NCBI GenBank assembly: GCA_008729055.1
Contig: SDUX01000003.1
Coordinates: forward strand, 1,240,001 to 1,304,000
Direction: 5' to 3'
Source of the DNA: Pyropia haitanensis
Lineage: Eukaryota; Rhodophyta; Bangiophyceae; Bangiales; Bangiaceae
DNA length: 64,000 nucleotides
Below, piece after piece: positions 16,600 to 43,925 of the stretch (position 1 is its first letter; each line of letters opens with the position of its first letter). The notes under the pieces were generated by a model that saw only the letters and a program-made list of their open reading frames with translations, did no database searches and had not been told where the DNA came from. Both the position numbers and the translations under genes were made by a program.

Positions 16600-18026
16600 C
16601 GTGGTTGGCGGGGTAGCCGCGTCGGGGGGGAGGTCACCCACCTTTGACAGCCGCCACGCCTGCCCGCTCACCTACCACGTCGGAAGCCACACCCACTCGA
16701 CGGAAACAAGCTCGGAGATGCGGGGGCTGCGGTCACAAGGCGAAAAGCGGACGCGAGGTCGGGGGGGGGGGAGAGGGTTGGCAAGATGCGTAGGCGAGAA
16801 CGCGGGTGCCGGGCGGGTGGGGGCGGAACGTAGACAGGTGGCGGTCGTCGCAGACGACGACACACGCTTCCCCCCCGCGGCACACGCACAAACCGGAACG
16901 CCACCAGGCGACGGTCGGGTTCCCAAGCGCAGGAGTGCCGGCCGGGGTGGTGCCACCGGTGGCGGCGGGAGGGGGAGCGAGAGCGGCGCTGGTGCGCCGC
17001 GCGCCCGTCTGCCCCGAGAATCACCTCGTGGCCACACACGCGGCGGGGGCGGTTGAGCTGAAGTCTGGGGGTCGTCTCACCGACAGCCCGGACGAGACCA
17101 CGAGCGCGATCGGGAGCTTCCGCACGAAAGGGGCGTCGGGAAGTGCGCCAAGCCCGGCTCGGTCACCATGATCGGCCGCCGCCAATTTTGAGATCGAGAT
17201 ACCGTTGCATGCTGCGGGACGAGGACGAGCGGTGGGTGGCGCTCCGGGTCCGCCACCCAATGAGAATTGGTGCCTGTACGAGACGACACGGCCATTGCTG
17301 ATCACACCAATCGGGCGTCCGGGCTCGTGTAACGATCTTGTACGTATCTGACGCCGCATTTGGTACACCACGATTGGTTGGCTCGACCCACTGGACCCGT
17401 TTATGTCGGAAACCGAAGACAAGAAACCCACTAACTATGAAAGTGTGTCGAATTAACGGCGAACGCACACGACTTACCGAATACATCCGTGCACAGTAAA
17501 TGATAATAGGTCATTAGTTGTAAGTATTCAAGACAAGTCGAATATGATTTCTTCCTACTCAGTACCTCTTCTGTTCGGATGGGGGGCACCGCCGTGACTG
17601 ACCAGGGACTTCCGCCCACGACGGTGCGCACTGCCAGCGTCGAATCGACGAAGTCGCGCTGGCGGGCCGTCCCCGTCGTCGTCCCCGCTGGTGTCTTGCC
17701 GTCAGCTACGCTGCTACGCCTCGGCGCTGTCCCCGCTGTTGTTTCTGCCGTCAGCTCTGCTGATTTTTTAGGCCGTCCCCGCTGCTGACCCGCCGTCCGT
17801 GGCCGCTGTGGCTGGTCGAGGAGCGCCACCATCTCTTTTTTGTTTTTGGAGCGGCGTCCTCTGGTTGTAGCTGCTGCTTGCGGTCGAGCACTGCGTGTTC
17901 TTCTCTGCAGCCAGCTGACTCTGCTGCAGAGCCTCTTCATACGTTCACGAGCGGCCGCGTTTTCCCCCTCGGTGTGGGGTTGTCCGCCTCTCGTGGGCTG
18001 GGCGCCGTGTGCCCGGCGACGCAACC
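16600..18026. promoter_or_regulatory. Shared divergent promoter region, ferrochelatase / ABCE1
   Basis: 1,427 bases separate the two divergent start codons, so both promoters should lie here. GC content falls sharply at about 17160-17580, with the most AT-rich part at 17430-17570, then rises again towards ABCE1. I cannot identify a TATA box or named element with confidence. No gene seen. Confidence 0.45.
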
Positions 18027-19856
18027 ATGTCGGACAAGCTGACCCGTATTGCGATTGTGAGCGCGGACAGATGCAAGCCCAAGCGGTGCGGTCAAGAATG
18101 CCGCAAGGGCTGCCCTGTCGTGCGGATGGGCAAGCTCTGCATTGAGGTGACGTCCAAGAGCAAGATTTCCTTTATCTCGGAGACGCTCTGCATTGGCTGT
18201 GGCATCTGCGTGAAGAAGTGCCCCTTTGACGCCATCCAGATCATCAACCTCCCCAAGGACCTGGATAAGGACACGGTGCACCGGTATGGCGCCAACAGCT
18301 TCAAGCTCCATCGGCTGCCGATGCCCCGGCCGGGGCAGGTGCTCGGCCTTGTTGGTACCAACGGGATTGGCAAATCCACCGCCTTGAAGGTGCTGGCAGC
18401 CAAGTTGAAACCCAACCTCGGTCGCTGGGACGCACCGCCCGACTGGGAAGAGATCCTCACCAACTTTCGCGGGTCGGAGCTACAAAACTACTTCACCCGC
18501 GTGCTCGAGGACAACCTCAAGGCGAAAATCAAGCCCCAGTACGTAGATCAAATCCCTCGCGCCGTGAAGGGCACCGTCAGCGACATCCTCAACCGGCAGA
18601 ATGAGCGGGACGTGGTGGATGAGCTCATTGAGGAGCTGGACCTGGCGACGGTCGCTGAGCGGGATGTGTCAGTGCTGTCGGGGGGGGAGCTGCAGCGCTT
18701 TGCCCTGGCCGTCACGGCTGTGCAGTCGGCGGACGTGTACATGATTGACGAGCCGTCTTCCTACTTGGACGTGAAGCAGCGGTTAACGGCGGCCAAGGTG
18801 ATTCGGGACTTGGTGACAATCACGCCAGAGACGTACGTGGTGGTGGTGGAGCACGACCTCGCCGTCCTTGACTACCTGTCCGACTTTATCTGCTGCTTGT
18901 ACGGCAAGCCCGGGGCCTACGGCGTGGTGACGTTGCCGTCAGGTGTGCGGGAAGGCATCAACATCTTTCTGGCGGGCTTCATCCCGACGGAGAACCTGCG
19001 CTTCCGCGCTGTGTCGTTGACCTTCCGCATTGCCGAGACGGCCGAGGCAGTACAGGAAGAGGAGGCGCATCACCGGCTCTACTCATACCCGGCAATGTCC
19101 AAAACGCTGGGTAACTTCAAGCTCCACGTGGAAGCTGGCTCCTTCACCGACTCGGAGATTGTGGTGATGCTGGGGGAGAACGGGACGGGCAAGACTACGT
19201 TTATCCGCATGCTGGCTGGCCTCCTCAAGCCCGACGATGATGGTGGCGAGGGGGTGCCGGAGCTCAACGTGTCGTACAAGCCCCAGAAGATCTCCCCCAA
19301 ATTTGACGGCACCGTCCGGCAGCTGCTGCACATCAAGATCCGTGACGCGTATCTGCACCCGCAGTTTATGACGGACGTGACACGGCCGATGCGTATTGAA
19401 GAGCTGCTGGATCAGGATGTGCAGCACCTGTCGGGCGGGGAGCTGCAGCGCGTGGCGTTGGTGCTGGCGCTTGGCAAGCCCGCCGATATCTACCTGATTG
19501 ACGAGCCGAGTGCGTATCTCGACTCGGAGCAAAGAATTATTGCGGCGAAGGTCATCAAGCGCTTTATCCTCCACTCCAAGTCGTCGGCGTACGTTATTGA
19601 GCACGACTTCATTATGGCCACCTACTTGGCCGACCGCGTCATTGTGTACGAGGGGGTGCCGGCCAAGGACTGTACGGCCACGGAGCCACAACCGCTGCTG
19701 AGCGGCATGAATGCGTTCCTGAAGTCGCTCAACATCACCTTCCGGCGGGACCCGACCAACTTCCGGCCGCGCATCAACAAGCTGGAGTCGGTGAAGGACA
19801 AGGAGCAAAAGTCTTCGGGCAACTACTTCTTTGTCGACACAGCGGACGAGGTGTGA
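18027..19856 (+). CDS. ABCE1: ABCE1/RLI1 ribosome-recycling factor
   Basis: Essential iron-sulfur ATPase that splits ribosomes after termination and in quality control. Intronless, 609 residues, the usual length. The N-terminal ferredoxin-like domain has Cys16, 21, 25, 29 and Cys55, 58, 61, 65 arranged for two 4Fe-4S clusters. The first ABC domain shows [22 protein letters not shown] and IDEPSSYLD; the second shows [22 protein letters not shown] and IDEPSAYLD. Switch histidines are in VVEHDLAVL and VIEHDFIMA. The start at 18027 ([11 protein letters not shown]) is where homologues begin; an ATG 18 bases earlier is in frame but adds only six residues. Functionally it pairs with the Hbs1-like factor encoded at 11.7-14.5 kb, since Hbs1-Dom34 precedes ABCE1 in ribosome rescue. 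Confidence 0.98.
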
Positions 19857-33146: not shown

Positions 33147-33743
33147 CGCTGTGGTGCTTAAAGGGAGGTTCAGGAAAAGCCTGTTTTGCCCTGTTGCGGG
33201 GCCCGCAGACGAGTCCACAGACGGTGGCCAGGATGGTTGTGGAACGCGTTTTCTCTTGGATTTTGCGGATCCGCTGTGGGCCATGTGCAAAACTTTGCGG
33301 AGCACCGCGCGGCACTCGAGTGCATTAGCCAATTGTCACTCAGCACGCGTGGTGCCCCCGGTCACAAGCCAATCAGTACTCTTTAAAGGCCCGGCGGCTT
33401 CCAGGGAGAAAGCGTGTTCTGAAGCCCTGTCCACAGGTTTTTTGTGGATTCCACAATTTTCTGCTGGGTGTTTTTGACAGCTGCTGTGGGGCGCACAGGA
33501 CGGTAACGGTCGGGCGACATACACCCTGCTCTCTGACATGCTCTTGTAGCTCTGTTCACGGTGCTTCACGTAATGGTGGTACGCAGGGTGTATGTCGACC
33601 GACGGCATGACCACAGGAGATAGGCAAAAAAAATAGAGAAAACTGGGGCGCATCGTACCGTGAGAGGGGGTCCACAAAAGAGTGCGCAACCCGCAAACAC
33701 GATTTCGGGCCGATTCCTGAACCTCCGTTTAAGCACCACAGCG
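33147..33743. mobile_element. MITE-like non-autonomous DNA transposon, 597 bp
   Basis: Both ends carry a 30-base terminal inverted repeat that begins CGCTGTGGTGCTTAAA and continues GGAGGTTCAGGAA after one mismatch; 29 of 30 positions agree between the left end (33147-33176) and the reverse complement of the right end (33714-33743). The element is flanked by the trinucleotide ATG on both sides (33144-33146 and 33744-33746), which fits a 3-bp target-site duplication. Internal sequence is AT-richer than its surroundings and has no long conserved open frame. The superfamily is not clear from the ends; a 3-bp duplication is seen in PIF/Harbinger and CACTA elements, but the ends do not read CACTA. 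Confidence 0.85.
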
Positions 33744-34250
33744 ATGGGGATGGGGGCGGCTGTGCTCCATCTCCTTCCACGCCTGCCACGTCGCCTCGTG
33801 CGGTCGCGCCGCTCCCGCCATCGTCTGTCGGAGCTGGGGCGCTGCTCGCGCACACTTTGCCTTGCCCGCGCACGCTTTGCCGTGCCGGCCGGCCGTCGCC
33901 CGCCGCGCGCGACGCGGCCGCCGCCGCGCCGCCGCCGCGGCGGCGGCGGCCGCCCCGCGTGGACGCGCCCGCCGTCGCGCGTGGCCGGCCCGGCCGGCGG
34001 TGGCGGCCGCCCGCCCCACACCCCGCCGCCGTCCGTCCCCCCCCCCCCCGCGCCTGCTGCCCGCCGCCGCCGCCGCCGCCCCCCCGCGTCGTCTGCTGCC
34101 CGCCGCCGCCGCGGCGGCGGGCCCGCGGCGGCGTCGGCCGGTGCGCGGCCGCCGCGGGTGCCGCCGCTGCGGCCGCCGCGGGCGCGGCGGATGCCCCCCA
34201 GCTACCACCCGGCCGCCCCTCCCCGCACGCCGCCCCGCCGTCCGCCCCGG
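33744..34250. other. 5' region of the DNA ligase gene
   Basis: The ligase frame is open across this stretch, and in-frame ATGs exist at 33744 (inside the target-site duplication) and 34191. The translation is Arg/Pro-rich low complexity, so it may be 5' UTR or an extended leader. No other gene seen. Confidence 0.45.
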
Positions 34251-34371
34251 ATGCTCTCGTCACGGGCGGTGCTGCGCGCCGCCGCCGCGGCCGCCGTTGC
34301 CGGCCGCGCCAGCCGCCGCGGTGGCGGTGGCGGTGGCGGTGGCGGTGGCGGTGGCGGTGGCGGTAGCGGCA

Positions 34372-34405
<34 letters not shown>

Positions 34406-36017
34406 TGGCGGCGGTGGCGGTGGCGGTGGCGCCGCCGCGACCGCCGCCCGTCGCGGTCGCCCGCTGGGGGCGTTTGTGGTGCCGCCGCCGCCGCTGCTGG
34501 GGCGCCTGGCGCTGCGCGGCGGCCGCCGCCGACAGTCGCCTCTGGTTGGCAGGCTGCCGGCGGCGGCGGCCGCCGCTGTTGCCCGCGGCGGGGGGCCCGC
34601 CGCGTGGCGTGCCGCGGCGTCGGGGACGGCGGCGGCGGCGGCGGCGCCACCGCCGCCGCCGCCGCCGCCCCCAAAGCCGCCATCGCCGTCCGGGCGGGGG
34701 TCTGTCAGCTCGGCGCCTGCCAGCGGGGCGGCGACGGACGCGGCGCTACCGCCCCCCGCTGCCATCCTGGCAGGCGCGGACAAGGACGGCGCCGACGATG
34801 GCGACGGCGATGGCGACGGCGATGGCGACGGCAACGACAATGGCAACGACGACGATGGCGGCGGCCTCTGCCCGTGCGCGTCCCGCGCCGAGTACGTGGC
34901 GCTCGTCGAGGAGCTCCTCGCCGCCGACGCGGCCTACTACCGCGACGTGCCGGCGCCGCTCCTGACCGACGAGGCGTACGACGCGCTGCTCGCGTACGTG
35001 GCGGCGGTGGAGGCGGCGGCGCCGGCGTGGGTGGACCCGCGCTCCCCGGCGGGGCGGGTCAGCCACGCGGCGGCCGCCGCGGCGGCGGTCAAGGCGGCAG
35101 CCGCCGCTGCTGCGGTTGCCGCTGATGCGGCGGCCGCGTCACCGGGGACGCCGGGGGCGGCGGCCGACGCGTCGGCGGCCGCTGCCGACACGGCGGCAGC
35201 GGCGGCCGACGCGGCGTCCGCGGCGGCAGCGGCGGCGGCGGCGGCGGCGACGCCACCGCCGCCCGCCCCTGTGGAGACCGACAGCAGCGCGCCGTTGGAG
35301 CCCCCCCGCGTGGCGGGCGCCGCCTTTTTCCCCCCCGCCGCCCACGTGGTGCCGATGCTCTCGCTCACCAACACCTACGCCGCGGCCGAAGTGCACGCCT
35401 GGGCCGCCCGCGTCGCGGCGTCGCGGCCGTCGCCGTCGGCGGCGGGCGCGCCCGCGTCGTCACCACCGCCGCCGGCGCTGGTGGCGGACCTCAAAGTCGA
35501 CGGCGTCGCCCTCTCCCTCCGCTACGTGGGCGGGCGGCTCGTGTCGGCGGCGACGCGCGGCGACGGCCGCTGGGGGGACAACGTCACCGCGAATGTGCGC
35601 GCGGCGCTCGTCGTGCCGGGCGCCGTGCCGGCGGCGCTGCCGCCCGCCGCGGTGGCGGCGGCCGCCACCCGCGTGGCGGCCGCCGCGACGGCAGCGGCGG
35701 CGGCGGTGGCGGCGGCGACTGCCGACAGGCGCGCCGCCGCCGACGCGGCGGCAGCGGCAGCGGCGGCGGCGGCGGCGGGGGTGGTGGTCGACGTCCGCGG
35801 GGAGGTGTACATGGAGCGGGCGGCGCTCGCGGCGCTCAACGCGCGCCCCGGCCCGCGGCTGGCCAACGCGCGCAACGCGGCGGCGGGGGCGCTCAAGCTC
35901 CACGACCCGGCCGCCGCCGCCGCTCGGCGGCTGTCGTTTGTGCCCTACGCGGCGGTGGCGTACCCGGCGGCGGCGCTCGCCGCGGCAGAGGCGGCGGGCG
36001 CAGCCGATGGCAGCGGT

Positions 36018-36082
<65 letters not shown>

Positions 36083-37865
36083 GGACGACGGCGGCGGCGT
36101 GCCCGTGACGGTGCCCGTCACTGACACGCACACGGCGCTGCTGGGCTGGCTCGCCGCCGCGGGCTTTACGCCCATGCCCCGCTGGCGGCGGTGCGCCGAC
36201 GCGGCCGCGGCGGTGGCGTTTGCGGCGGACGTGGCGGCCGAGCGTGGGGCGCTCCCCCTGGACGTTGACGGCGTCGTTGTGCGCGTCGACGACGCGGCGG
36301 CGGCGGCCGCGCTCGGCGCGACCGCCCGGTCACCCCGCGGGGCGGTGGCGCTAAAGTTTGCGGCCGCCGCGGGGGTGACCCGCCTGGTCGGCGTCGCGCA
36401 CCAGGTGTCACGGGCGGGCGTGCTGACGCCCGTCGCGGTGCTGGCGCCGCCGCTCCGCCTGGGCGGCGTGTCGGTGTCGCGCGCGACGCTGCACAACTAT
36501 GGCCACGCGGGCGCCGCGCGGCTGGGCGCGGTGGTGGGCGCGCTGGTGACCGTCGCCCGGGGGGGGGACGTCATCCCCAAGATTGTCGCCGTGCACGCCC
36601 GGCCCGCCGGGGGGGTGCCCGTCGCGCCCCCGCCCGACTGCCCGGCGTGTGGCTCCCCGGTGCACTTTGCAGAGGGCGACGGCGACGGCGGCGACGGCGA
36701 CGGCGACGGCGATGGTGGCGGTGGCGGCGGTGCGGGGGGCGACGACGGCGCCGCGGCCGCCCGCCACGCGGCGGACGCGGCGACCCCCCGGCGCGCCGCG
36801 GCTGTCGCGGTCGCGCGGTGCACCAACGCGGCGGGCTGCCCCGCGCAGGTCGTCGGGCGGCTGACCCACTATGGCCGCCCCGGCTGCATGGACATCCGCG
36901 GCCTCGGCGCGGCGACCGCGCGGCGCCTCGTCGACGCGGGCCTCGTCGCCACCCCCGCCGACCTCCACGCCCTCCCCGCCGACGCCATTGTCGCGGCGGG
37001 CATCCCCGGCCTCGGCGCCAAGGCCGCCGCCAACCTCGCCGCCGCCGCCGCCGCCGCCCGCACCGCCCGCCCGCTGGCGGCCATCATCCACGCGCTCGGC
37101 CCGCCGGGCGTCGGCGCGGTGACGGCGCGGGTGCTGGCGCGGCGGGCGGGCTCCCTCGCCGCGGCGGCGCGCGTGCTGGGCGCGGCCGACGCGGCGGCGG
37201 CGCTGGCGGCGCTGCCGGGCATTGGGGGGCCGTCGGCGGCGGCGATTGGCGCGTTCTTCCGCCACCCGTCGGTGGTGGCGGAGGTGGGGCGGCTGCTCGC
37301 CGCGGGCGTGGCGGGGGCGGACGAGGCGGCGCTGACCGCGGCGGCCGCCGCAGAGGCGGCAGCGGCCGCCGCGGCGGCTGACGCGGCGGCGGCGGCCGAC
37401 GCGGCGGCCGCCGCCGCCGACGCGGCGGGTGCCCCGCCGTCGGCAATCCCCGCGGCGGGCGGTGCCGATGCAGATGGGACGGCCGCGGCGGCGGCGGCGG
37501 CGGCGGCGCCGGTGGCGGCGGCGGCGGCGGCGGCGGCGGGCGGTCCCCCCACCACGGTGGCAGCGCCGCTGGCCGGCGTGGCGGTCGTCTTTACCGGCGG
37601 CCTGTCGAGCCGGTCACGGTCCGCGGCGGCGGCGGCGGTCGCCGCCGCCGGCGGCGCCGTCCGCGCCACCCTCTCGTCCCGCACCGGGGTGGTGGTGGCG
37701 GGCGCGTCGCGGCCGGCGGCGGCCAAGCTCCGCCGCGCCGCCGCGCTGGGCGTGCGGGTGGTGGGCGAGGCGGAGCTCGACGCGCTGCTCGCGGGCGGGC
37801 TCGCCGCGCTCGACGGTGGGGGGGGGGCGGTGGGGGGGGGGGGCGCCGCCCAGCGGGGCGGGTGA
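34251..37865 (+). CDS. ligA: NAD+-dependent DNA ligase, bacterial LigA type
   Basis: Seals DNA nicks using NAD+. One uninterrupted frame of 1,204 residues (bacterial LigA is about 670) containing the LigA modules in order. Ia: YYRDVPAPLLTDEAYDALL. HVVPMLSLTNTY. Adenylation Lys about residue 415 in ADLKVDGVALSLRY. ATRGDGRWGDNVTANVR. DVRGEVYM. LANARNAAAGALK. LDVDGVVVRVDD. OB domain: VLTPVAVLAPPLRLGG, VSRATLHNYG, GGDVIPKIV. Zinc-finger cysteines CPACGSP and CTNAAGCPAQ. HhH repeats (GIPGLGAKAA, LPGIGGPSAA). BRCT: LAGVAVVFTGGLSSRSRSAA. The extra length is Ala- and Gly-rich insertions between modules. The N-terminus MLSSRAVLRAAAAAAV, basic and followed by poly-Gly, resembles a plastid or mitochondrial presequence; in-frame ATGs at 34191 and 33744 are alternatives. 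ATP-dependent ligases are the normal nuclear type. Confidence 0.93.
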
Positions 37866-38578: not shown

Positions 38579-41500
38579 TCAGCGCGTCGGCGCGGCCTCC
38601 TCCTCCACCGTCGCCACCTTTTGCAGCACCGGCGGCCGGTACAGCCGCAGCGTCAGCGCGCAGCCGACGACGCACAGGCTGCTCGCCGCCATCGCGACGG
38701 CCGCCATGTACGGCGGCAGCCGCCGCTCGAGCACCGGGTACAGCGCGCCCGCGGCGACCGGGATGGCCGCCACGTTGTAGCCGAGCGCCCACCCATAGTT
38801 GAGGCGGATGCGCGTAAAGGCGGCGCCGGCAAGGTCGACCATGACCAGCGCGTCGGCGAGCTTGGCGCGGACGAGGACGACGGCGGCGGACTCGGCCGCC
38901 GCGGTGCACGCGCCCTTGCCGCCCATCGCGACGCCCACGTCCGCGGCGGTCAGCGCGGGCGCGTCGTTGATGCCGTCGCCGATAAACGCGACGGTGCGCT
39001 TGGGCACGAGCGGCTCCCCCGTGTCGGCGTCGACCGGCGGGCCGCGGCAGATGAGCAGCCGGCCGATGCGGCGCGCCAGCGACGTGGTCGGCGCGACGGC
39101 AACGGCGTCGGGCGGGGGGGGGGGGGGCGCCAGCTCCTCCCCCACCGGCACCGCCACGTCCGACGGGCCGTCCGCGGCGGCCGCGGCGGTCGCCCGCCGC
39201 GCGCCGGCGACCGACGCAAACGACGGCGACGTGCCGCTGTCGTCACCGTCCGACTCCGAGTCGGACAGGTCCGCCGGCGGCGGCGGCGGCGGCAGCACCA
39301 GCGGCACGACGGCGGCGCCCTCGCTGACCGGCGACGCGATCTTGGCGTCGTTGACCGCCTGCACCTTTTGCCACGGGAGCGCCTCGGCAACGACCCGCGC
39401 CTGCGGGATGCCCACCTGCGCGGCGACCGCGTACGCGGTGGCCTTGCCGTCGCCCGTCACCATCCACACCTCCACGCCCTTGCGGTGGAAGCCCGCCACG
39501 ACCGCCGCCGCGTCGGGGCGGAGGCCGTCGGCAATGCCAAACGCGACCGCCGCCTTGCCGCCAACCGCGGCGACCACCACCGTCGCGCCCGCAGACTCCC
39601 ACGCCGACACCCGCCGCAGCGTCCGCGCGTCGGGCGCCCAGCCGGTGGACGAGGTGATAAACGCCTTGGAGCCGACCGCCACCTTGGTGCCATCCGCGAG
39701 CGTGGCGGTCACGCCACGCCCGCGCTCGACGCGGCTCGTGTTGACCGCCGTCGCGGGGTCGGCATTGACGCGGCCGCGGCCGCCGCCGCCATCATGGTCG
39801 CCGCCGTCGTCGCTCTCCTCGGCCTCGGAATCCGACGCGCCCTCCCGCTTGCACTTCTTCACGTACGAGATGATGGCGAGCGCGAGCGGGTGCTCCGACG
39901 CGGACTCGGCCGCCGCGATCGCGTCGAGCACCCACGGCTCGGGCTTCATCGACGACGAGCAGCGGTCGCCCGACAGGCGCAGCATGTGGCACACGGTCGG
40001 CTTGCCGCGCGTCAGGGTGCCCGTCTTGTCAAACAGGATGGCCTTGATGCCGGCGGCCGACTGGAGCGCGTCGCCGCCGCCCTTGAACAGGATGCCGTGG
40101 CGCGTTGCGCCCATCGCCGTGGCCACCATCACGACGGTGGGGGTGGCGAGGCCGAGCGCACACGGACACGCAATGACCAGCACGGCGAGCGAAAACAGCA
40201 GCGAAAAGAGGATGTCGCCCTCGGACGCGGTCCACCGGTCCGGCACCGAGTTGGACGCGGCGAGGCCGTACCACACTGCAAAGGTCGTCACCGCGGTGAA
40301 CACAATCGCCGGCACAAACACCGCCGACACAACGTCGGCAAACGCCTCGATCGGCGCGCGCGTCGTCTGGGCGTCATCGACCAGCCGCACGACCCGCGCG
40401 AGCACCGCGTCAATGCCCACCGCCGACGCGCGCACGACACCGGCGGTGCGGCCGGCATTGAGGGTGCCGCCGTACGCGTCGTCGCCGGCAAACTTGGCCA
40501 CCGGCCGCGACTCGCCGGTGAGCATCGTCTCGTCACACGCCATGAGCGCGCCAACCGCCGCGGCGGCGCTGCCTTCATCGTCACTCTCGGGGCGGCGGCC
40601 GCCGCCCGGCGTGCCGGGCGGCGCCATCACCTCCCCGTCGACGGGCACGCCCGCGCCGGGCTTGACGAGGACCACGTCGCCAATGGACAAGAGCGCGACG
40701 GGCACCTGCTCGGCAACGACGCGCGAGCCGTCGGGGCTCATGAGCGTCGCGATGGGCGGCGCGAGCGACGCGATCGCCGCCACCCCCGCGGCGGCCTTGC
40801 CCTTGGCCAGCGCCTCGAGCCACTTGCCAAAGAGCACCACCGTCAGCAGCAGGGCGGCCGTCTCAAACACCGTCGACTCCTTGACGCTTTCGCCGTGGAC
40901 GCCGCCCAGCTGCCGGTCGCCCGACGTCTGCACCGCCGTCAGAATGACAATGACCACCGAAAAGCCGTACGCGATCGTCGTGCCGAGCACGATGAGCGTG
41001 TCCATCGTCGACCGCTTCTTCTTGGCCGCGTAGTAGGCGCCACGGTAAAACGACGCGCCCGCAATAAACTGCACCGGCGTGGCCAGGATCCACGCGACCA
41101 GGTCGAGCAGCGGCACGTCCGCCGACGACGAGACGCTCTGGATCAGCCGGTTGTGCACGACCGGGATGTGCCGCGTGATCATGGTCATCACAAAGAGCGG
41201 CAGCGTAAAGATGGTGGCAAAGATGAAGCGGCGCAGATAGAGACGTGCCTCCTTGCGCAGCGCGTCCTGTGCGTCCGTGGCGGACGCGACGCCCGCCACC
41301 TCGTTGGGCGGGATGACCGTAAACGGCAGCTTCTCGCCGTGGGCCTCCTCAAACGCCATCACCACCGACACCTTGGGCGTCACGCCCGGCGTGCCCAGCG
41401 GCGGCGGCCCCGACGGCCCGTCCTCCCCACCCGCCGCGGTGGCCGCAGCCGCCGCCCGCGCGGCGGCCACGTCAGCGGGCGCGCGGCGGCCGCCCGGCCG

Positions 41501-43925
41501 CACCGCCGGCGGCGCCTTGACGTCCTCAAACTTGAGCCACACGATCATGGGCAGCGGCGGCCGCCGGCCGGGGAGGAGCGCCGCCACCCGCCGCGCCGCC
41601 GCGCGGAGGCCACAGCAGCCCCGCACGGTGCTGCCGACGCGCTGCTTGGCCGTCCCGTCGGGCGGGGGGGCCTCCTCGTCAACGCCGGCGAGGACGCTGC
41701 CCGCGTCCGAGCCGGTCAGCGCGAGCGACCGCAGCAGCCGGCTGGTCGTGCGGAGGAGGGCGGTGAGGCGGCTGGAGCGGCGTGCCGACGGCCCGTCGGG
41801 CGGCGGCGTGTCAAACGACGTCGACGGCACGCGCTCGGTCACGTCCGCCGGCGGCCCCGGCGCGTCGGCCGCGTCGGCGGCACCGCCACCCCCATCCCCG
41901 CGAATGACCGCCGTCGGCGAGTCGACCAGCCGCGCCGACGCGACGCCCGGCGTCACCCGAAACACGCCGACCGCCGACACGGCCGCCTCGTGCGACGCAA
42001 ACCGCAGCAGCGTCACGTTGGTGGCGAGCCCCCCCCCCCCATTGTCCTCCGCGCCCGTCACGCCCGTCATGCCCAGGACGGTCACCTCAAAGCCGCCCTC
42101 GGTGAGCGCCGCGACCGCCGCCTTGGACACTGCTGTCGCCGACTCGACCGAGCCGGCCGCCTCGGGCGTCAACGACACGATCGCGCGGGCGGCGAGGAGG
42201 TTGACCCGCGCGCCCGCCACGCCCGGCACCTCCCGCAGCATCCCCTCGGCCTTGCCCACACACGCGGAGCAGGTCATGCCCCCAACGGTGAGGCGCACTT
42301 CGGGAGCGCCACCGCCGCCGGTGCCGCGCGCGGCGCCGACGGCGGCCGCGTCGGCGCGTGCCGACGGGGAGGACAAGACCATGGACAGCGCCACCGCCGA
42401 CGGCGACGCGATCGACGCCGCGTCGCCCACCGTCGACGGCGCGCCACACGTGTTGCAGTCGGACGGACCACCGCAGCGGCTGCCACCACGGCGGTGACCG
42501 CCACCACCACCGCCAGCACCCGCCCCGCCCTCCCGGTCGGTGCTGCTGCCATACCCACCGCACACCCCATCCGCCAGCGATGGCGTGCCGACACGCGCCG
42601 GCACACCACCGCGACCGCTGCCGCCGCCGCCGTCCGCAGCCACCGCCACCGACATGGCACGGGGCGTCCGCACCAACAGCCGAGGCGACGCCGCACGCGG
42701 CGCGGCGTCGGTGCGCGGGGAGGACCGCGCCGAGTGCCAGCCCTTGTTCTCCGCCGTCAAGGACGTGGTGCTCTCGCTGTCCGACGTGCCCGTCGTAGAC
42801 CCGTGAAACGAGGACGGCGCAGAGGGAGACCAGGCGCGGCCGCCGCCGCCGGCGCCCCCACCCCCACCCCCACCGCCGCCGCCGCCGACACCCCCCTCTG
42901 ACGACACGACGCGGGGGCGGTCCGACGTGCCGGCGGTGACGCCAGGCAGCTGCCACGGCGTCGCGCGGGTGCCCGCCGCGGCGACCGCGGACAAGACCCG
43001 GCCGACCAGGCTGGGCGAGCTCCCCACCAGCGCGTCATCCGCGGCGGGGGCGGCGCCGTCACGGGCGGCACCCCCCCCCCACGGCCGCCGCCGCGGCTGG
43101 CGCCGCCCCCATCGGCGGCCGCCGCGCCCCGCCGCGGCGCCGCGACGACCGTCAACACCCCCGTCAGTGCCGACACCTCCACCGCCGCCACCCGCGGCAC
43201 CGCGGCGACACGCTCCCGCACACGCGCCACCGCCGCCGCGTCGGCCAGCCCCTCCACCGTATACACCGACAGCGTGTTGGTCGGCGACCGGCCGGCCGCC
43301 ACCGCCGCCGCCGGCGGCGGCGGCCGATCCCGAACGGCGGCGGACTTGCCCGCCGCCGCGACCGCCGCAAACACCGCCGCGTCCGCGTCGGCGGCCGGCG
43401 GCGGCGGCGGCGTCCACGTCACGTCGAGCGCGCCGTCGACGCCCAGCTTGGTCGCCGCCACCCGGTCCAGCTCCTCCACCGCCCCCCGCACCCGCGCCAC
43501 GCAGCTGCTGCACGTAATGCCCGACACGGCGTACGAGGTGACCGCCGCCGCGGCGGCGGCGTCGGCGGCGCCACCCCGCCCGCCACCCCCCCCCGCGGGG
43601 CGGTGGCGGCGGCGGGCGGCGGCCACGCCGCCCGCCCGACGCCCCCGGCGCTCGTCGGCGCCGTCGGCAGCGCCGCCGACGGGCCCCGCTCCCGGACGGT
43701 GGCGGTCTTGGCCGCCGCCTTGACCGCCCCAAACACCGCCGCGTCCGCGTCGGCCACCGCCGGCCGCGGCGGCCGCCACGTGACGTCCAGGTTGCCCGCC
43801 ACGTCGAGCGTGCTGCCCGCCACGCCGGGGAGGTTATCGACGAGGCCTTGCACCCGCTGCACACAGTTGCCGCACGTGATGCCCATCACCGAGTACTTGA
43901 GCACGAGGCCGGTCGACGACGCCAT
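38579..43925 (-). CDS. Copper-transporting P1B-type ATPase (frames disrupted at N-terminus)
   Basis: Pumps Cu+ across membranes using ATP. The start at 43925 (MASSTGLVLKYSV) leads into HMA domains with copper-binding motifs GITCGNC, GITCSSC and, further on, GMTCSAC. Two further HMA-like stretches lack CxxC (EGLADAAAVARVRE region and SHEAAVSAVGVF region). The ATPase core shows MLTGESRPVAKF, the CPC membrane motif (ACPCALGLA), phosphorylated Asp in DKTGTLTRGKPT, SEHPLA, MVTGDGKATA and GDGINDAPAL, plus YN in the last helices. About 100 residues of Pro/Ser/Asp-rich insert separate VQAVNDAKI from TVAFIGDG. The first two HMA domains lie in two other frames that meet at C-runs near 43587-43595 and 43071-43080; the remainder is one frame. 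A role in copper delivery to the secretory pathway or plastid is possible but not shown. Confidence 0.9.

Follow-up and report, generated by a model that had tools for sequence, protein, structure and literature searches.

Published surveys assign the ligase job of eukaryotic organelles to an ATP-using enzyme. A table of organelle replication enzymes that covers eight plant and algal species, with two red algae among them, gives LIG1 as the only ligase, and the same source reports LIG1 alone in both organelles of Cyanidioschyzon merolae and calls the plastid ligase of Arabidopsis unclear (PMC4166229). A 2019 review, in the part of it available, describes NAD+-dependent ligases as identified only in eubacteria (PMC6728418). 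The preliminary description of the locus analyzed here held LigA to be otherwise typical of bacteria and some viruses, a view that needs amending in light of Paulinella, for which the available portions of two papers describe nuclear LigA genes with chromatophore (crTP) and mitochondrial (mtTP) targeting peptides (PMC9450145, PMC7826189).

The LigA of the red alga Pyropia haitanensis resembles the Paulinella proteins, as those portions describe them, in being a nuclear-encoded ligase of the NAD-dependent type; the Paulinella proteins are aimed at organelles, with two of three copies carrying annotated targeting peptides, whereas the alga has one LigA place with a candidate targeting region, a comparison made by description (PMC9450145, PMC7826189). 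The LigA proteins of NCLDV are likewise NAD-dependent ligases tied to eukaryotes, but in the accessible part of the relevant study they are reported near gammaproteobacterial and phage LigA (PMC2806865), which sets them apart by description, and the algal protein was not drawn to 24 LigA from IMG/VR contigs. Plant and red algal LIG1, as an organelle ligase (PMC4166229), is alike in its proposed job but is ATP-dependent and belongs to another family, and the alga has a LIG1-like locus besides LigA. Bacterial LigA (NF005932 / PRK07956; E. coli LigA, PDB 2owo) provides the best sequence and structure matches of the algal protein and shares its modules, their order, the catalytic Lys, the NMN site, the zinc cysteines and the BRCT domain, at 32-43% identity (sets of 22 and 23 sequences). 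Unlike its bacterial counterparts, the algal protein is encoded by a eukaryotic nuclear gene, and it has an N-terminal extension, Ala/Gly inserts and the paired substitutions E113D/K290R.

Nuclear LigA with organelle targeting is thus of a known kind, going by the available Paulinella sources, and in the literature examined no report of a nuclear LigA in red algae was found. Such a gene would mean that the red lineage is able to retain or gain the bacterial ligase, and would open the organelle-ligase question to localization tests, although the surprise is smaller given Paulinella.

The ligA gene and its nuclear setting

The window, that is the whole 64,000-nucleotide stretch of DNA analyzed, contains the gene and the following neighbors:

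18009..19856, + strand: ABCE1/RLI-type gene, frame from a GTG (Pfam)
33147..33743, no strand assigned: 597-bp element, dispersed through the alga's own genome; its inverted ends are 30 bp long and ATG lies on either side (genome matches)
34251..37865, + strand: ligA, predicted 1204-residue NAD+-dependent DNA ligase of bacterial type (open reading frame, domains and profile scores)
38579..43864, - strand: gene for a heavy-metal P-type ATPase, with the frame counted from a GTG (Pfam)

The ligA frame runs from the ATG at 34251, which was taken as the start although further in-frame ATGs lie upstream (33744, 33750 and 34191), to the stop ending at 37865, and is free of stops over 1204 codons. Because long open frames turn up on both strands of the GC-rich DNA of the window, the open frame alone is little proof of a gene. 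The match to LigA is nevertheless not a chance one, since 71 of 77 near-invariant columns are kept and the conserved core has the periodicity of coding DNA, with GC contents of 0.838/0.635/0.956 at codon positions 1/2/3. The putatively translated N-terminal extension (0.866/0.799/0.809) and Ala/Gly-rich inserts do not have this third-position rise.

That ligA belongs to the alga's own nuclear genome is supported by its place on a 2.1-Mb contig among eukaryotic-type neighbors, by a host-like core GC3 and by a host repeat whose end lies 507 bp upstream of its ATG. A Pfam scan of ten neighboring frames gave two informative results, the ABCE1/RLI-type gene and the heavy-metal P-type ATPase, and none for the other eight; the eukaryotic flanks proposed earlier are upheld by these two genes. 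The GC3 of the ligA core (0.956) is near that of LIG1 (0.947) and of the neighboring ATPase (0.922), with 0.824 for the ABCE1-type gene, and together with the Ala/Gly inserts it bears out the GC-rich, Ala/Gly-rich host style noted in the preliminary description. The upstream element has 42 long matches in the host genome. Epiphyte DNA does occur in red algal assemblies, according to the part of the source available (PMC8752119), but the contig with its two recognized genes, the inserts, the core GC3, the repeat family and an identity to bacterial LigA of at most 43% in both sets make bacterial contamination or misassembly extremely improbable, in agreement with the earlier judgment that recent contamination is unlikely.

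Family assignment, modules and adenine contacts

The preliminary description's claim of a complete bacterial-type LigA with all modules in order (Ia, NTase, OB, zinc finger, HhH, BRCT) is confirmed by the reading frame, domains, LigA profile and residues. The parts of the protein are:

34251..34877, + strand: putatively coding N-terminal extension, residues 1-209, a candidate organelle targeting region followed by an Asp/Gly stretch (composition)
34878..35078, + strand: domain Ia with the NMN site, Y229/D240/Y243/D244 corresponding to E. coli Y22/D32/Y35/D36 (residue alignment)
35304..36368, + strand: nucleotidyltransferase domain with the K415 nucleophile and inserts at residues 467-507 and 573-617 (Pfam and residue alignment)
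35487..35489, + strand: D413, corresponding to E. coli E113, the adenine N6 contact; D in 0/203 bacterial LigA (alignment)
36282..36284, + strand: R678, corresponding to E. coli K290, the adenine N1 contact; R in 0/203 bacterial LigA (alignment)
36378..36599, + strand: OB-fold domain (Pfam match)
36639..36839, + strand: C4 zinc finger C797/C800/C857/C863, with an insert of residues 813-848 between the cysteine pairs (residue alignment)
36891..37274, + strand: helix-hairpin-helix region (HHH_5 and HHH_2 matches)
37566..37787, + strand: BRCT domain (domain match)

The product scores 444.7 bits with the NCBIfam LigA model NF005932, above its cut-off of 369, and 388.6 with TIGR00575, below that model's own cut-off of 444.45. 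Pfam thresholds are passed by the adenylation domain (3.6e-47), OB (3.2e-17) and HHH_5 (5e-8), and there are sub-threshold matches to HHH_2, BRCT and the C4 zinc finger. An identity as LigB was rejected (NF005987, 96.6 bits vs 498); LigB is not known to have a zinc finger or BRCT, and the algal protein has the zinc cysteines and a BRCT domain. An ATP-dependent ligase was also rejected, as Pfam gave no DNA_ligase_A_M match in the protein and the two such places in the genome lie elsewhere. The best PDB matches of the predicted structure are LigA proteins, DNLJ chain 9a6z_B at rank 1 and E. coli 2owo at rank 2 (E 1.5e-42); because their TM scores by query are 0.47 and 0.46 and their rmsd values 28.6 and 19.4, the overall domain placement in the model is unsupported. 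The Ala/Gly-rich inserts that enlarge the protein, including the Gly/Ala/Asp-rich one that separates the cysteine pairs of the zinc finger, fall mostly in low-confidence stretches.

Residues were compared with 203 bacterial LigA chosen by similarity, a near-invariant column being one with at least 97% of one residue. Those kept include the catalytic Lys, the NMN-site residues and the four zinc cysteines. Y229, D240 and D244 match residues invariant in 203/203 bacterial sequences (E. coli Y22, D32 and D36), the domain Ia residues for NMN. Motif I (KxDG) is present as K415, D417 and G418, and E518, D673 and K702 are present at the positions of E. coli E173, D285 and K314, presumably functional LigA residues. 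Both E113 and K290 are invariant in 203/203 bacterial LigA, and the alga changes the two together, conserving charge in each case. Among 60 LigA from IMG/VR contigs, the E113D-type Asp occurs in four, there lacking the partner change, and the K290R-type Arg in nine by alignment (four with a clear DGxVxR), also singly. Because these members depart too, the adenine-edge contacts are not a defining feature of LigA, and E113D/K290R is treated here as apparent variation in the pocket that leaves family membership unaffected. Other departures are G332S and three more, and seven bacterial sequences counted alike show 0 to 2. The altered adenine contacts count against the view of a working ligase.

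Phylogenetic affinity and age of the acquisition

In three trees, built without any LigA known to be cyanobacterial (the Synechocystis plasmid record held no LigA), the algal LigA joins Chlamydiota and is sister to the 12 sampled (97/96 in the careful tree). Environmental Chlamydiota LigA (L013, L162-L190) are the nearest group, but the alga attaches to the stem outside all sampled members, and Chlamydiota would on these trees be the best-supported neighbor. The end branch of 2.86, against a median of 0.49, supports a probably old acquisition, as the preliminary description had proposed. When six AU tests were made, only the union of alga and Alphaproteobacteria fell below 0.05 (p 0.0106, uncorrected; delta lnL 31.8), and a union with Bacteroidota and Ignavibacteria was not rejected (p 0.449).

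Pairwise scores were discarded as a donor guide, the best bit scores being a near tie (Chlamydiota 365, Stella 363, Hymenobacter 361, Chloroflexota 361, Bacillota 357). Signature residues gave no decision either: strict thresholds favor Chlamydiota, and the alphaproteobacterial excess is composition-driven. The alga has 8/32 strict Chlamydiota-diagnostic residues, a count reached by 1/173 outsiders (members average 85%), but 3/22 once G, A, R, P and V are removed, with 26 outsiders equal or better, and 9/71 at relaxed thresholds, with 48/173 equal or better. The relaxed Chloroflexota signature gave 3/9 (15/173 outsiders equal or better). A viral origin was also rejected: a phage search for LigA relatives and a first viral scan gave no match, a second scan found the 60 IMG/VR relatives, and with 24 of these in the tree the alga remains with Chlamydiota (SH-aLRT 95). 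As a long-branch control, six randomized mimics of algal composition were made, one per donor group with the donor removed. Five of six returned to their donor's group, the Chloroflexota mimic went to Gamma/Beta, and none of the five non-chlamydial mimics was drawn to Chlamydiota; the mimics were 45-50% identical to their donors and nested within groups, whereas the real algal LigA is on a stem.

The endosymbiotic source entertained in the preliminary description thus fares unevenly. Arrival of ligA with the mitochondrion from an alphaproteobacterium matches the highest pairwise identity (Stella, 42% in the tree set) and the 15/69 typical residues at relaxed thresholds, reached by only 9/188 outsiders, but the AU result disfavors it and nearly every residue in common is one of G, A, R, P and V (2/36 without these, which 162/188 outsiders reach; 0/13 at strict thresholds), which leaves this source very unlikely. 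Arrival with the plastid from a cyanobacterial endosymbiont is improbable, although the Chlamydiota stem is a spot where an unsampled phylum could belong and DnaG and DnaB of red algae are, in the part of the source available, reported to be of cyanobacterial origin (PMC3914683). Rather doubtfully, an ancient Chlamydiota-related LigA may have been gained by the red algal lineage and become an organelle ligase, its adenine edge rebuilt by the coupled Glu-to-Asp and Lys-to-Arg changes; if true, it would be an extra DNA-replication enzyme among the genes said to be chlamydial at plastid origin.

Proposed role in organelles and its alternatives

We consider it probable that this nuclear gene, an old acquisition under selection, encodes a working NAD+-dependent LigA imported for organelle DNA, with LIG1 and LIG4 for the nucleus. 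Starting from the nuclear location, the complete modules and the conserved catalytic, NMN-site and zinc residues, all established at the sequence level, we infer activity, NAD+ use, import, organelle identity and a division of labor with LIG1. The protein would be synthesized in the cytosol and imported into plastid, mitochondrion or both (we lean to plastid or dual). NAD+ would be bound with its NMN part in domain Ia and K415 adenylated; with the OB, zinc-finger and HhH parts holding the nick, AMP would move to its 5' phosphate and the nick would be sealed. Okazaki and repair nicks would be closed in this way beside other bacterial-type enzymes. A genome search found one LigA place and two ATP-ligase loci, read as probable LIG1 and LIG4, which would serve the nucleus.

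An organelle role is favored because the genome has bacterial-type DnaG and 5'-3' exonuclease domains, because of the Paulinella precedent and because of the acid-free N-terminus. In Cyanidioschyzon merolae DnaG is plastid-localized (PMC4166229 Table 1). The only ligase reported there for plastid and mitochondrion alike is LIG1, so LigA need not be required in organelles. The N-terminal extension has no D/E in residues 1-162 and 18 K/R ahead of D163, so the basic, Ala-rich N-terminus earlier taken to hint at an organelle stands as basic and acid-free. It is no more amphipathic than shuffled sequence, as 916/2000 shuffles attained the maximum hydrophobic moment found over residues 1-30, which is not significant. 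By comparison, the alga's LIG4 frame opens with an acid-rich stretch (one protein only). The targeting reading, which is suggestive, is weakened because shuffles match the moment, proteins of the alga are Ala/Gly/Arg-rich in general, several ATGs are possible and the extension has no GC3 rise.

These same features of the N-terminus would suit an active LigA that does additional repair work beside LIG1 and LIG4, in the nucleus or the cytosol. Basic clusters could give nuclear import, and the genome search found only two ATP-ligase places. This reading is unlikely, given that a published survey assigns the bacterial-type replication enzymes of red algae to the organelles (PMC4166229 section 21) and that two of three Paulinella copies have organelle targeting in the part of the source available (PMC9450145). 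Less probable still is a decaying or catalytically weakened LigA that lost nick sealing through fast evolution and altered adenine contacts, to which the long end branch, G332S with its three companions and the E113D and K290R changes point, the K290 contact being described as critical in E. coli LigA in the accessible part of its source (PMC5052709). Set against decay and in keeping with the organelle ligase are the near-invariant columns kept, the stop-free frame with its GC3 rise in the conserved parts, and the retained charge at both changed contacts, each of which is found singly in IMG/VR LigA.

An NAD+-dependent DNA ligase gene in host DNA

The algal ligA is a real, old, nuclear gene. 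Its open frame, encoding 1204 residues, lies on a contig of 2,099,417 bases within a 52.9-Mb, 136-contig assembly of Pyropia haitanensis, with the following features around it.

Features of the window at and around ligA
18009-19853 (+), ABCE1/RLI-type gene (Pfam match)
33147-33743, MITE-like element of 597 bp whose ends are 30-bp inverted repeats, with an ATG on either side
33880-34250, very GC-rich stretch before ligA, GC flat by codon position
34251-37865 (+), ligA open frame
38582-43864 (-), heavy-metal P-type ATPase gene (Pfam match)

The LigA core has a third-position GC of 0.956, compared with 0.947 for the catalytic part of LIG1, 0.922 for the conserved part of the ATPase and 0.824 for the ABCE1-type gene; window GC is 71%, and values of 64-68% are reported for Bangiales (PMC7423979). 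At least 42 matches to the 597-bp element, each 290 bp or longer, lie on at least ten contigs of the alga's own genome, counts that are lower bounds and include the window copy and three head-to-tail copies on contig C77. At least nine other copies are 97-98% identical to the window copy, and sequence identity of up to 98% suggests that the element spread recently. The contig, the eukaryotic neighbours, the host-like GC of the core and this dispersed element all indicate that the locus is embedded in host DNA, so the preliminary description was right to consider recent contamination unlikely. Its view that the flanking genes are eukaryotic holds for the ABCE1-type and ATPase genes, but eight of the ten other frames searched had no informative Pfam match.

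The LigA modules, described earlier as complete and in order, were recovered by Pfam in sequence: the adenylation domain first, followed by the OB fold, the zinc finger, a pair of HhH matches and finally BRCT, with HHH_2, BRCT and the zinc finger scoring under Pfam's own cut-offs. The protein passed the NCBIfam LigA model NF005932 (444.7 bits vs a cut-off of 369) and did not pass TIGR00575 (388.6 vs 444.45), and E. coli LigA was its top match among 33 matched PDB sequences. An AlphaFold2 model of residues 206-1190, built with 23 relatives, had a mean pLDDT of 74.3 and a pTM of 0.57, with the weakest confidence mostly within inserts. Judged by title, every Foldseek hit of ranks 1-38 was a whole or partial NAD+-dependent ligase, four rows being from phage PR1 and the others bacterial. 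The first two, a DNLJ chain and E. coli 2owo (E 1.5e-42), gave TM scores by query of 0.47 and 0.46 and rmsd values of 28.6 and 19.4, so in the predicted structure the domains match but their mutual placement does not.

Inserts and an altered adenine pocket

Relative to E. coli LigA, and with boundaries set from the alignment, the algal protein is lengthened by 209 residues at its N-terminus and by Ala/Gly-rich inserts of 75, 41, 45, 36 and 76 residues, the 36-residue insert being in the zinc finger (C800-C857 interval). The third-position GC rise of the core is absent from the inserts and the extension, so their full retention in the mRNA is only putative.

In an alignment with 203 bacterial LigA, the alga retains the Lys nucleophile and the four zinc cysteines, as had been claimed, together with the NMN-site residues Y22, D32 and D36. 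Of the 77 columns in which a single residue makes up 97% or more, six differ in the alga (E. coli residue first): E113 to D413, F181 to L526, K290 to R678, G332 to S720, D373 to A764 and G646 to A1157; seven bacterial LigA counted likewise showed 0 to 2 departures. In E. coli LigA, a review describes hydrogen bonds from K290 to adenine N1, a contact called critical, and from E113 to adenine N6 (PMC5052709). Both adenine-edge contacts are therefore altered together in the alga, with charge kept at each, and we infer that E113D and K290R may compensate each other. Among 60 IMG/VR LigA, D occurs at 113 in four (two near-identical) and R at 290 in nine by alignment, four of these with a clear DGxVxR motif; none of the 60 combines D113 with R290.

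LigA from IMG/VR contigs relax adenine contacts that are invariant in the 203 bacterial LigA, with T, S, V, G or D at 113 and, by alignment, R, E or I at 290 (loci L094, L095, L097, L149, L136, L140, L144 and others of the 60).

Origin and precedents

The LigA core was matched in 112 of 116 Chlamydiota genomes at E 0.001. No cyanobacterial title occurred among the 80 relatives listed of 588 in the genome scan; two of these 80 had no phylum in the title and were placed with Acidobacteriota and Bacteroidota. LigA exceeded the family cut-off in 39/41 Bacillota, 33/41 Chloroflexota and 37/38 Omnitrophota genomes, from each of which groups at most 30 loci were taken on. The alga grouped with 21 Chlamydiota in a quick tree of 87 rows (SH-aLRT 95), with 12 in a more careful one built from 61 rows over 652 columns (97/96), and with Chlamydiota in a quick tree that included 24 of the 60 IMG/VR sequences (95); the three trees overlap in most of their data and hold no rows known as Cyanobacteria, Planctomycetota or Verrucomicrobiota. 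Six long-branch mimics used as a control argued against a default pull to Chlamydiota.

In AU tests, joining the alga to other groups gave p values of 0.0106 (Alphaproteobacteria), 0.052 (Bacillota), 0.104 (Chloroflexota, which the unconstrained tree does not unite in a single clade), 0.151 (Gamma/Beta), 0.181 (Omnitrophota, four of five rows) and 0.449 (Bacteroidota with Ignavibacteria); with correction for six tests, even the lowest misses 0.05. An unsampled sister phylum of Chlamydiota would also place the alga on the Chlamydiota stem, and signature residues did not decide among donor groups. In the phylogeny that had been proposed as a check, Chlamydiota are the nearest group, with proteobacterial and IMG/VR LigA among those compared.

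LigA was already known from eukaryotes: three nuclear copies are reported in Paulinella, labelled eukaryotic, of which one carries a chromatophore targeting peptide and another a mitochondrial one (PMC9450145; also PMC7826189), and an older study calls eukaryotic LigA only sporadic (PMC2806865). The earlier statement that LigA is otherwise typical of bacteria and some viruses therefore needs amending for the nuclear Paulinella copies; in contrast to these, the alga has one LigA place. None of the top-ranked papers in the literature searches was seen to describe a red algal LigA; "DNA ligase" was absent from the main texts of PMC7423979 and PMC8752119 and, by search count, from PMC2490706, PMC2376095 and PMC2394758. 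The transfer tables of Bangiales papers (51 and 267 candidates) may already hold the algal LigA. The kind of gene is known; the altered adenine pocket and the host lineage are the new points.

A probable role in organelles

It is reasonably probable that the algal LigA is imported to join organelle DNA. Its first acidic residue is D163, with 18 basic residues ahead, in line with the basic, Ala-rich N-terminus that had been taken as a possible targeting sign; the second-longest acid-free run has 97 residues. However, acids are few anyway in a protein rich in Ala and Gly (D plus E, 7%), the first 30 residues show an unremarkable hydrophobic moment (reached by 916 of 2000 shuffles), and GC by codon position in residues 1-70 (0.900/0.929/0.714) is unlike that of the coding core, so import is a reasoned guess. 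In-frame ATGs lie upstream at 33744, 33750 and 34191, and 33880-34250 is a candidate leader or longer N-terminus. That the extension lacks the core's coding signal slightly lowers the probability of an organelle role and raises that of work in the nucleus, which we nonetheless consider unlikely.

The alga's genome has one LigA place and two ATP-ligase places, read from sequence as LIG1 (C9:1303130) and LIG4 (C9:4771371). Two further nuclear genes are candidate organelle replication enzymes.

Bacterial-type replication domains in the nuclear genome
G000:C7:792057-792422, DnaG primase domain
G000:C3:5319572-5320063, 5'-3' exonuclease domain

In C. merolae, DnaG and Pol I are described as plastid-localised and a single LIG1 as going to both plastid and mitochondrion (PMC4166229; PMC3914683).

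Elsewhere in the genome, a phycobilisome-domain match (4.8e-17) at G000:C11:3537377-3537640 (L006:1501-1764) lies in an Ala-rich nuclear frame of 658 aa, either a phycobiliprotein-like gene or a plastid-derived relic.
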